Below, piece by piece: positions 2,284 to 6,722 of a stretch of DNA of 6,722 bases. A model generated the notes under the pieces. It did not search any database. It was given only the letters and a program-made list of their open reading frames with translations, and was not told the origin of the DNA. Location of the stretch: positions 1 through 6,722 of the forward strand of contig NZ_JAIOSW010000241.1 of assembly GCF_021107415.1 (NCBI RefSeq), read 5' to 3'. The DNA comes from Desulfobacula sp. (GTDB lineage Bacteria; Desulfobacterota; Desulfobacteria; Desulfobacterales; Desulfobacteraceae). Position numbers and translations under genes: made by a program. Numbering within the stretch: the stretch's first letter is position 1; each line of letters opens with the position of its first letter.

Positions 2284-2292
2284 GTTCTCAGG
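2279..2292. other. Palindrome spanning the two converging stop codons
   Basis: CCTGAG-TT-CTCAGG forms a perfect 6-bp inverted repeat. The left arm contains the TGA of nadC (2281-2283) and the right arm contains the TGA of the opposite-strand regulator gene (complement of 2288-2290). A CAG/CTG pair beyond a 3-nt bulge could lengthen the stem. Neither strand has a U-tract after it, so it is not a convincing intrinsic terminator. It may be a weak bidirectional 3'-end hairpin or simply a by-product of tightly packed gene ends. Confidence 0.5.
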
Positions 2293-3196
2293 ATTCTGAA
2301 ACAATATAGGTTAATTTATTACGGCCGGTATCCTTTGATTGATAAAGGGCTTTATCGGATCGGCCGATAAATGATTTGAGATCTTCTCCTTTCACAAGTT
2401 CGGTGGCACCAATACTGATGGTGATTGATGCTTTTTTGCCCGGTTCCGGCTCAAATATTTGAGAGCCGATGTTGTCTTTTATTCTTGCTCCCACCACACA
2501 GGCCTTTTGAATCCTTGTCTCCGGCAAAAGAATGGCAAACTCTTCTCCACCATATCGATAGGCCGTGTCCATGGATCTCATACAGACTTTGATTGTTTTT
2601 CCAATCCTCATAAGGACCTCATCCCCTCCAAGATGCCCCCAGGTATCATTATATTTTTTAAAAAAATCAATATCCAGGATCAGCAATGACAGGGTGTGTG
2701 AATATCGGTTGTGCCGGTTGATTTCAGTTTTTATCTGGGAAAAAAAGTGTCGTGAGTTATAAAGTCCTGTCAAAGCGTCTGTAATGGCAAGTTTTTCAAG
2801 TTTTTTTAAGAGTTTTGCGCGTTCTTTTTTAAACGAGGCTTCCCTTAAAACTCTTTTAATTCGTAAATCCAGTTCTTCAAAACGAAACGGTTTGAAAATA
2901 AAATCGCTGGCCCCTGCCTGAACTGCTTCTTCGTATGAATACTCGGCACTGTAACCGGTCATGACCATGACATCAATGTCATATGATTTTTTTATCTCGC
3001 GTGTAAGTTCCAGCCCGTCCATGCCTTGCATCATAATATCCGTCAGGACAACATCTGCTTTAAACGAATTAAGTATTTCCAAGGCTTTATCTGCATTTAA
3101 AGCGCTTTTAACTTCATAATTCAAAATTTTTAGATATTCTTCTACAGATTCTTTAATCGCAACATCGTCATCAACAATCAGGATAGAATATGTCAT
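2288..3196 (-). CDS. Response regulator with GGDEF domain (probable diguanylate cyclase, PleD/WspR-like architecture)
   Basis: A 302-residue cytoplasmic signalling protein predicted to make cyclic di-GMP from two GTP when phosphorylated. Residues 1-120 are a receiver domain: acidic pocket D9-D11, phospho-acceptor D53 (LTDIMMQGMDG), T80 in VMTGYS, and K102 in FKPF. A charged helical linker (about 118-137) leads to a GGDEF domain starting at LAITDALTGLYNSRHF. It has the metal-binding DIDFFKKYND (175-184), GHLGGDEVL, and the active-site loop GGEEF (216-220). RSMD (207-210), five residues before GGEEF, matches the RxxD product-inhibition site. All catalytic positions look intact, so it should be active and feedback-inhibited. 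There are no membrane segments. The ATG is supported by GGAG 10 nt upstream (complement of 3207-3210). The cognate kinase is not in the window. The gene is divergent from lepA and convergent with nadC, so it is transcribed alone here. Confidence 0.93.
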   Translation of the reverse strand: MTYSILIVDDDVAIKESVEEYLKILNYEVKSALNADKALEILNSFKADVVLTDIMMQGMDGLELTREIKKSYDIDVMVMTGYSAEYSYEEAVQAGASDFIFKPFRFEELDLRIKRVLREASFKKERAKLLKKLEKLAITDALTGLYNSRHFFSQIKTEINRHNRYSHTLSLLILDIDFFKKYNDTWGHLGGDEVLMRIGKTIKVCMRSMDTAYRYGGEEFAILLPETRIQKACVVGARIKDNIGSQIFEPEPGKKASITISIGATELVKGEDLKSFIGRSDKALYQSKDTGRNKLTYIVSES

Positions 3197-5137: not shown

Positions 5138-5178
5138 GAAAGGCTGCAATATAGAGTTAACGGATGCCGCAGCCTTTC
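5138..5178 (+). terminator. Probable terminator after lepA, possibly bidirectional
   Basis: GAAAGGCTGC (5138-5147) and GCAGCCTTTC (5169-5178) form a perfect 10-bp stem around a 21-nt loop, 7 nt after the lepA stop. On the plus strand the 3' side runs into TTGTTCAATT, a moderately U-rich tail. On the minus strand the same stem lies 23 nt past the stop of the PEP-CTERM gene, but the tail there (ATACTATC) is poor. The large loop is not textbook. The stem symmetry and its place between converging genes still favour termination. Confidence 0.7.
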
Positions 5179-5201: not shown

Positions 5202-6011
5202 TTATTCTTTTCTGCTAATTCTTGCAAGGCCCAGAAGCCCAAGTCCGAAAAGCATAATAGTTGCTGGCTCCGGAACAGGAGCTGCTTTAAAATTATCAAG
5301 TGCCCAAGTAGCTGGATTGTTATCAATAGAGTAGGCTCCGTAGTGAAGAAGCTGATTGTTTCCCCAGGTTCCCGTACCCCCATCGATATTAGAAATAGTA
5401 TCAGTTCCGCTGAAAATATATAATCCGATACTGGTATAGCCGGTTAAGACCTCGTAAAAAGACTGATTATTTGCAGCAGAGTTTGGCCAGCGGAAAAAAT
5501 TATTTGCTTCTAAATTAATCGAATGGGTTTCCCATCCACTAAGATCGTTGATATCAATACTTGCTGCTTGTGTTGAAACAAACATATTGTGAAGTCCTGA
5601 ATCCAGCTGATTGGAGATTACCCAGCGGGCATAGACATTGCCATCATCTCCGGAACTGCCATTTGCAATGGTTTCCCAATTAATAGTGCTGTAAATATCT
5701 GTCTGCAGTTGCATACCGGTAAGGTCCCCCAGGAATGTGTTACCTTTTATTCCCATCCAATAGGCACGTTCTTCAATCCCTTGAGCAGTTTGATAGATAT
5801 GACCGGTCGTATTGCCATACCCTGATCCTTGCCAGTTTGCAGGAGTATTCGCAAACAGTGTATCATAGAGTGGCCCACCAGATGGTCGACCTGCATATGT
5901 TTGTTCCCATCCCTGATTATTGTTATTAAAATCGTACGGTGCTGCAATAACGTTTCCAACGGCCAATAATAAAACAAGTGATAAACTTACTAAAAATAAT
6001 AGTCTTTTCAA
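5202..6011 (-). CDS. Secreted PEP-CTERM sorting domain protein
   Basis: A 269-residue exported protein (275 if the earlier TTG at 6029 is used). The N-terminus MKRLLFLVSLSLVLLLAVGNVIAAP is a classic Sec signal peptide: basic start, hydrophobic core, cleavage probably after VIA or IAA. The C-terminus is a complete PEP-CTERM tag: VPEP (246-249), a hydrophobic segment MLFGLGLLGLA, then basic RISRKE. In known systems this tag is handled by an exosortase, and such proteins are linked to exopolysaccharide and floc or biofilm surfaces. The mature part is Cys-free and rich in Asn, Gly, Ser, Thr and aromatics. The order WQGSG..GHIYQ..AYWMG..FLGDLTGMQLQTDIYS and, near the end, ATWALDNF loosely recalls laminin-B or jelly-roll beta-sandwich domains found in PEP-CTERM proteins; that is a suggestion only. 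The start was chosen because AAGGAG lies 9 nt before the TTG at 6011, whereas the TTG at 6029 would put that site inside the gene. A sigma-54 promoter lies upstream. No exosortase is in view. Confidence 0.92.
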   Translation of the reverse strand: MKRLLFLVSLSLVLLLAVGNVIAAPYDFNNNNQGWEQTYAGRPSGGPLYDTLFANTPANWQGSGYGNTTGHIYQTAQGIEERAYWMGIKGNTFLGDLTGMQLQTDIYSTINWETIANGSSGDDGNVYARWVISNQLDSGLHNMFVSTQAASIDINDLSGWETHSINLEANNFFRWPNSAANNQSFYEVLTGYTSIGLYIFSGTDTISNIDGGTGTWGNNQLLHYGAYSIDNNPATWALDNFKAAPVPEPATIMLFGLGLLGLARISRKE

Positions 6012-6026
6012 TGATTCATTCTCCTT
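6009..6026 (-). promoter_or_regulatory. Ribosome binding site deciding the TTG start of the PEP-CTERM gene
   Basis: On the minus strand AAGGAG (complement of 6021-6026) is followed by 9 nt and then TTG (complement of 6009-6011), giving MKRLLFLVS. The other in-frame start, TTG at 6029, directly follows an in-frame TAA and has the Shine-Dalgarno inside its own codons 2-3. An ATG only 1 nt after AAGGAG is out of frame and stops after three codons (Met-Asn-His). Confidence 0.75.
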
Positions 6027-6041
6027 CAATTAGTGTTTGTT

Positions 6042-6057
6042 CAAGTATAATTACTTG
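6042..6057. repeat. Inverted repeat in the PEP-CTERM gene leader
   Basis: CAAGTA (6042-6047), TAAT, TACTTG (6052-6057) form a perfect 6-bp inverted repeat. It lies about 10-25 nt after the predicted sigma-54 transcription start and 15 nt before the AAGGAG. It could be a repressor operator or an mRNA leader hairpin; the sequence alone cannot decide. Confidence 0.45.
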
Positions 6058-6076
6058 CTATCATAATTGTAGAATA

Positions 6077-6094
6077 TAGCAATTTATATGCCAA
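6077..6094 (-). promoter_or_regulatory. Sigma-54 (RpoN) -24/-12 promoter of the PEP-CTERM gene
   Basis: Read on the minus strand, TTGGCATATAAATTGCTA has the invariant GG (complement of 6091-6092) and GC (complement of 6079-6080) exactly 10 nt apart, as sigma-54 promoters require. The -24 block TTGGCA and -12 block TTGCTA match the consensus YTGGCACGRNNNTTGCW at most positions. Transcription should start near 6067, giving a leader of about 55 nt. No competing sigma-70 promoter is evident close to the gene. Sigma-54 control of PEP-CTERM genes is known in other bacteria, which supports the call. Confidence 0.8.
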
Positions 6095-6218
6095 ACATCA
6101 TTTTGTTAAAAGTTATTTACTCCAGATTGTCAGAATGGTCTATATACTTCAGTTTAAATCTGATCCATATAAGGTAATAAGGGTAATGAGACAAATTGTT
6201 TTGCTAAAAGAGGGAAAA

Positions 6219-6284
6219 TTTTTACATAGTTTTAGTACTTTTTTTACATAGTTTTATTACAATATTTTCACATAGTCCAATTTT
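6219..6284. repeat. Tandem ACATAG repeats, candidate enhancer (UAS) of a sigma-54 activator
   Basis: Two adjacent copies, 6219-6238 and 6241-6260, read TTTTTACATAGTTTTA(G/T)TAC and match at 19 of 20 positions, with a 22-bp period (about two helical turns). A third, degenerate copy keeps TTTTCACATAGT (6265-6276), with its ACATAG 24 bp after the second. The array ends about 127 bp upstream of the -24 element of the PEP-CTERM promoter and extends to about 183 bp, the usual range for enhancer-binding protein sites. Binding by the neighbouring activator is an inference. Confidence 0.6.
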
Positions 6285-6347
6285 ATTTCAGAGATAAATC
6301 CGTTCTACATCCATCTGAAACTCCATTCTCCTTGTTTATATATCTAT

Positions 6348-6362
6348 AGCAATAATATTGCT
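6348..6362. repeat. Short palindrome downstream of the activator gene
   Basis: AGCAATA-A-TATTGCT is a perfect 7-bp inverted repeat around one base, 61 nt after the stop of the activator gene. With no U-tract on the minus strand and an AT-rich stem it is a poor terminator; it could be a protein-binding site. Confidence 0.3.
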
Positions 6363-6423
6363 CTTTATCGCTGGAGCTGTTTTATCTTTGACACAGATTT
6401 TCCTGTCTGCTGTATCTTAAAAT

Positions 6424-6722
6424 TTATTCATTCATTTTTTCCAGTCTGTACCGGAGTGTGGCACGGGACAGGCCAAGGAACCTGGCAGCCTTGGAAACAT
6501 TATTATTCAACGTTTTCATCGCATAATTAATACAATAACTTTCAAGATCATCAAGGCTGAGTCCATGATCATTAATTATCAGTGGAATGAGTGAGTCCAG
6601 GTTTATTTGTTTAAATATTTTTTCCTGGGATTCATTGAGAATGACATGGTGGCTGGTGATTTGAGAGCCTTTCGTAAGAATCATGGCCCGCTCAAGAACA
6701 TTTTTTAACTCCCTGATATTTC
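6424..6722 (-). CDS. Sigma-54-dependent transcriptional activator, C-terminal end (5' end outside window)
   Basis: About 98 residues of an enhancer-binding protein are visible, and the frame is open to the right edge. The first residues, NIRELKNVLERAMIL, are the end of the AAA+ sigma-54 interaction domain (normally preceded by W-P-G), which hydrolyses ATP to remodel sigma-54 RNA polymerase. After a linker of about 45 residues comes a Fis-type helix-turn-helix, NNVSKAARFLGLSRATLRYRLEK, ending three residues before the stop. This is the NtrC-family layout; the N-terminal receiver, PAS or GAF sensor domain that would define its signal is outside the window. An internal ATG at 6684 falls within the AAA+ end and is not the real start. 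The gene lies directly upstream of, and on the same strand as, the sigma-54 promoter of the PEP-CTERM gene, making that promoter a natural target. The TLRYRLEK end is a general NtrC-family form, so assignment to the PEP-CTERM regulator PrsR is not supported by what is visible. Confidence 0.93.
   Translation of the reverse strand, partial: NIRELKNVLERAMILTKGSQITSHHVILNESQEKIFKQINLDSLIPLIINDHGLSLDDLESYCINYAMKTLNNNVSKAARFLGLSRATLRYRLEKMNE

Follow-up and report, generated by a model that had tools for sequence, protein, structure and literature searches.

What controls a solitary gene for a PEP-CTERM surface protein that lies just downstream of, and on the same strand as, the gene for an NtrC-family response regulator? 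The question is raised by a stretch of Desulfobacula DNA, 6,722 nucleotides in length and analysed in full (the window), in which the 3' part of valS, nadC, a receiver-GGDEF gene and lepA precede the PEP-CTERM gene (5202..6011, minus strand; 269 aa). The activator gene, cut by the window edge, contributes its 3' end (6424..6720, minus strand), which encodes the C-terminal 98 aa of the regulator. The receiver-GGDEF gene (2288-3196, minus strand, between nadC and lepA) places a probable diguanylate cyclase near the surface-protein gene. lepA and the PEP-CTERM gene converge on a hairpin at 5138..5178, a probable terminator, which folds on the minus strand at -18.9 kcal/mol (z -3.74). The regulator gene is directly upstream of the PEP-CTERM gene, across an intergenic gap of 412 nt. 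A sequence-only reading had seen a self-contained sigma-54 module here, and the four elements from which it was assembled (activator C-terminus, -24/-12 site, repeats and PEP-CTERM gene) are all present on the minus strand. The conclusion favoured here is of a sigma-54-type PEP-CTERM gene that is without a recognisable PrsR enhancer and that possibly represents a variant wiring of mostly familiar parts; a self-contained module is too strong a reading.

The longest ORF of the PEP-CTERM gene begins at 6029. TTG at 6011 is the likelier start, since AAGGAG (6026-6021) lies 9 nt ahead of it and the 269-aa database entry, P0001, agrees. The 269-aa protein ends in the tail VPEPATIMLFGLGLLGLARISRKE and has the C-terminal PEP motif, transmembrane helix and basic end that define PEP-CTERM proteins; its scores with PF07589 (31.7 bits, cut-off 20.7) and TIGR02595 (20.2, cut-off 16) bear out the original assignment. 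The N-terminus is hydrophobic, as judged by eye, and residues 2-18 form a helix in the structural model. That model predicts a CBM11-like jelly roll, matching the family 11 carbohydrate-binding module (PDB 1v0a) in fold at 16% identity; a Pfam search finds nothing beyond the PEP-CTERM motif and a PDB sequence search finds no match. Chains that are not carbohydrate-binding modules (meprins, reelin, a viral turret protein) score almost as high, so that the fold alone is no proof of sugar binding. We infer, with that reservation, a protein that is anchored at the surface and binds sugar.

Upstream of this gene, TGGCATATAAATTGCT (6078..6093, read from 6093 to 6078 on the minus strand) matches the sigma-54 consensus at 10 of 12 positions, with GG at -24, GC at -12 and correct spacing. 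When the intergenic strand is shuffled by dinucleotides, only 12 of 5000 shuffles match the consensus as well, and the correctly spaced sigma-54 promoter of the earlier reading is upheld. TGGCAYN5TTGC occurs without mismatch just once in the window; two matches appear when one mismatch is allowed, and since 54 of 200 whole-window shuffles give at least two, this looser form is by itself unremarkable. Judged by promoter spacing, transcription would start at about 6067 and generate a leader of about 56 nt. The 66 nt that separate TGGCATATAAATTGCT from the start codon fit the mean distance given for PEP-CTERM promoters (71, S.D. 38.5; PMC1569441). Its sequence thus suggests that TGGCATATAAATTGCT is an active promoter and that the gene depends on sigma-54. 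Another stretch, the near-palindromic TGGCACGGGACAGGCC within the 3' coding end of the activator gene (6459-6475), also resembles a sigma-54 site, whichever strand is read (9/12 and 8/12), which is probably a coding-sequence coincidence.

The 98-aa regulator fragment scores above cut-off with PF02954 (HTH_8; 47.3 bits, cut-off 22) and PF25601 (AAA_lid_14; 28.3 bits, cut-off 27). It has, in other words, the Fis-type helix-turn-helix and AAA+ lid end of the NtrC family, as had been claimed. The N-terminal parts lie outside the window; a full-length proxy, P0042 (456 aa, encoded on a different contig and matched through a padded query), is 100% identical to the fragment across its length. P0042 is built like AtoC/NtrC-type response regulators (receiver, AAA+ with GAFTGA, Fis helix-turn-helix) and keeps D53 and K103 as well as GAFTGA. 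It scores 408.9 bits with the PrsR model, TIGR02915, below the cut-off of 502.6, in agreement with the earlier view that this activator is not PrsR, and it falls short of the curated cut-off of all 23 NCBIfam models listed (AtoC, 469 vs 714; NtrC, 427 vs 559). A MobR/V4R-type activator, the best NCBIfam match of the fragment, was ruled out because P0042 carries a receiver domain. Two Desulfobacula sp. entries are 97% identical to the fragment, which points to a Desulfobacula-like sulfate reducer as the probable source. There are 436 database matches to the fragment in all. The 120 of these that were listed are 59-100% identical and bear such names as Desulfobacula, Desulfobacter, Desulforhopalus, Desulfotalea and Desulfopila, many of them Desulfobacterota. 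An alignment of 19 of those 120 (A2) was taken to viral contigs and gave 108 loci, 80 of which were kept, with a best segment 52% identical; a plasmid search with P0042 listed at least 5000 records, all under 60% identity. The PEP-CTERM family, at 75 database matches in a search of different depth, seems far smaller than that of the regulator. This breadth suggests that the regulator has other duties and that its position beside the PEP-CTERM gene may be accidental.

Between the two genes lie three copies of ACATAGT (ACTATGT on the strand of the gene) that are candidate activator-binding sites. They occupy 6224-6230, 6246-6252 and 6270-6276 on the plus strand (6224..6276 overall; spacing 22 and 24), 157-209 nt upstream of the presumed transcription start. 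The closest copy is 130 nt above the -24 element, compared with a published PrsR spacer of 32-92 nt (PMC1569441). The repeats are AT-rich, and no dyad akin to the TGT-N11-ACA of the PrsR box is seen in them by eye; a repeat search returns two pairs, one of 22 nt (86%) and one of 16 nt (88%). Some 7-mer occurs three times within 60 bp in 21 of 2000 shuffles, or about 1%, by a statistic that was picked after the repeats had been seen. Enhancer-like repeats are thus present at the usual enhancer distance, as first described, but they are barely beyond chance. They may be the sites of the neighbouring regulator.

Searching genome contigs with the single PEP-CTERM protein gave no match. A1, an alignment of 27 of its 41 matches (with P0040 and P0041 the common part is the PEP-CTERM tail only), found four loci on contigs of 4-13 kb, identified by number as G001:C115, G002:C152, G003:C227 and G004:C227. 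The closest relative with surroundings that could be read is the gene at L001, from a gammaproteobacterial MAG (G001), which is 59% identical; its contig, 4.2 kb long, holds no activator gene next to it. At L001:738-844 a sigma-54 site that matches at 9/12 (a score reached by 86 of 5000 shuffles) is preceded, at 74 nt, by a PrsR box, TGTCAGAATAATTTACA, and G001 encodes a PrsR at 724.5 bits, above the cut-off, flanked by genes that on visual inspection resemble those for a histidine kinase and a TPR protein. The best PrsR-model matches in G002-G004 (420.7-434.7) fall under 502.6, with P0042 near them. A single protein family therefore seems to have been placed under different enhancer types, with a full PrsR box at L001 and without one in the window. 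Searches of plasmids with P0001, and of viral contigs with A1 and with LepA, gave no match. LepA of G004, an unclassified MAG that does not look like Desulfobacterota, is 56% identical to LepA of the window. A literature search turned up no account of PEP-CTERM in Desulfobacula.

The alternatives differ in what they make of the promoter and its enhancer. Transcription might be of the sigma-70 type, from a TTGGCA-N17-TACAAT that overlaps TGGCATATAAATTGCT on the same bases and also matches at 10/12, or it might come from read-through of the regulator transcript across a gap in which a scan found no minus-strand terminator; the sigma-54 match would then be a coincidence. The sigma-70-like site is itself at chance level, however: it is present in 1241 of 5000 shuffles (against 12 for the sigma-54 site) and the whole promoter region holds 5 such sites, where the shuffles average 4.9. 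It was rejected as a candidate and, with 412 nt for read-through to cross, we consider either route very unlikely. Canonical control by PrsK/PrsR is a further alternative. The window resembles the PrsK/PrsR genes described by Haft (2006; PMC1569441) in its single-gene unit, its long intergenic region and the position of its -24/-12 site, some 70 nt upstream of the start; it differs from them in being without the 17-nt box and in a neighbouring regulator that falls short of the PrsR cut-off. That box, derived from gammaproteobacterial loci, has a fixed orientation and stands 32-92 nt above the -24/-12 element, and no such arrangement is found in the window. A weight matrix built from 14 sites, all gammaproteobacterial and scoring 17.5-25.2, finds no box in the promoter region of the window, where the best score is 4.4. 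Among 30 gammaproteobacterial PEP-CTERM loci fetched from a longer list of matches, 13 have a TGTCAG-N5-TTTACA-like box with a sigma-54 site, compared with 2 of 150 shuffled loci, which reproduces the published two-motif layout (PMC1569441); the 13/30 is partly circular because the box consensus came from the same loci, and the published layout and the shuffled loci are the independent checks. Absence of the box is common, since 99 of the 167 PEP-CTERM genes surveyed in proteobacteria were reported to have a site (PMC1569441), as do those 13 of 30 loci here.

Control by PrsK/PrsR would then need a box that has degenerated or diverged; a possible candidate is TGTCAGAATGGTCTATA (6128..6144, plus strand), which is reversed. 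In favour of such control, the L001 homologue has its box above a sigma-54 site, G001 encodes a PrsR that clears the cut-off, and the window shares TGTCAGAAT at 34 nt above the promoter, inside the published range of 32-92 (PMC1569441). But TGTCAGAATGGTCTATA is wrongly oriented, scores the 4.4 already cited, and its simple match of 10/12 is equalled by 367 of 5000 shuffles; the likeness is probably chance and we think this route unlikely. A stronger competitor, though in our estimate still doubtful, accepts a sigma-54-dependent gene, patchily distributed, and looks for its activator in some other non-PrsR response regulator encoded elsewhere, the neighbour controlling other genes and being adjacent by accident. 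The wide conservation of the regulator C-terminus among many Desulfobacterota speaks for it, as do the small size and patchiness of the PEP-CTERM family (present in G001 alone among 186 genomes around it), the L001 gene with no adjoining activator, and the absence of all four homologue contigs from the listed NtrC-type matches. Against it stand a neighbour that is directly upstream on the same strand and repeats at the usual enhancer distance. The proposal that we tentatively prefer, without rating it quite as probable, is of a single-gene sigma-54 unit for an exported PEP-CTERM jelly roll under non-PrsR control, with the neighbour as best candidate, acting through the repeats. Non-PrsR wiring is a fair reading because P0042 falls below the PrsR cut-off and the region is without a PrsR box. 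To that extent the different local wiring first suggested survives, with the neighbour as a candidate activator and the repeats as its candidate sites. What finds no support is the term self-contained, with its implication of a dedicated regulator, in view of 436 as against 75 matches and of L001, with no activator beside its gene on that short contig.

In the preferred scheme, a single-gene, sigma-54-dependent unit would be under a response regulator of the NtrC family that is not PrsR. The upstream regulator, to judge by position and strand the best single candidate, would bind the ACATAGT repeats and loop to sigma-54 RNA polymerase; exosortase would process the product, an exported protein with a carbohydrate-binding-like jelly roll, on the cell surface or in the matrix. 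Should the upstream regulator prove to be the activator, the display of surface proteins in these bacteria would respond to a second two-component signal, and two different sigma-54 enhancers could be compared in their control of homologous surface proteins; otherwise the locus adds another PEP-CTERM gene of the sigma-54 type, under some other activator. A more elaborate history, which we regard as rather speculative, is that the gene left the PrsK/PrsR regulon and was rewired to a widely conserved Desulfobacterota response regulator by way of a new enhancer of three half-sites, about two helical turns apart, the gammaproteobacterial homologue having kept its PrsR box.

Related cases are on record in other bacteria. 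pepA of Aquincola tertiaricarbonis, like the gene in the window a PEP-CTERM gene with -24/-12 motifs, has had its start mapped and its dependence on RpoN1 measured (PMC9850573). PrsK-PrsR are proposed there as the probable regulators and an enhancer sequence is reported; neither was found in the window. In D. vulgaris, a model sulfate reducer, DVUA0057, which is PrsR-type (and is PrsR in Table 1 of PMC1569441), binds five PEP-CTERM genes, and DVU0804 and DVU0110 have a few targets in common with it (PMC3333781). This offers a precedent of sorts, by analogy, for control of a PEP-CTERM gene by more than one regulator.

The homologue search brought a further feature to light. Of the 78 matches listed, 30 are without PEP-CTERM and end like SFGSVKALFR or TSLDALKALYR, 27 of them strictly in KAL[YF]R; in Krumholzibacteriia-type homologues the KALYR/KALFR tail takes the place of PEP-CTERM. 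The tailed proteins include the one on the Krumholzibacteriia contig L002 (protein end at G002:C152:5635), along with P0025-P0035, P0163 and P0165-P0178, and G004:C227:7397 has the pattern at the expected end of the homologue at L004. Five homologues that carry the tail or a version of it have no NCBIfam match, and the three of them compared with Pfam have none there, in both cases at E up to 1. A DNA pattern that encodes KAL[YF]R and then a stop (or TGG) has 316 matches in 58 genomes of the G002 phylum, where the reversed control has 37; the 57 genomes searched around G001 give 57 matches against 43, with 21 of the 43 in one genome. Thirty of 35 matching loci were fetched and 29 distinct stretches read; in 26 of these the tail closes an ORF of 152-467 aa, and a crude pattern picks out a signal-peptide-like N-terminus in 24 of the 26 ORFs. 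A literature search on C-terminal sorting in Krumholzibacteri- found no description of a KAL[YF]R tag. That one domain ends in PEP-CTERM in some phyla and in KAL[YF]R in another suggests a second C-terminal sorting tag, which may be more novel than the sigma-54 PEP-CTERM locus itself.
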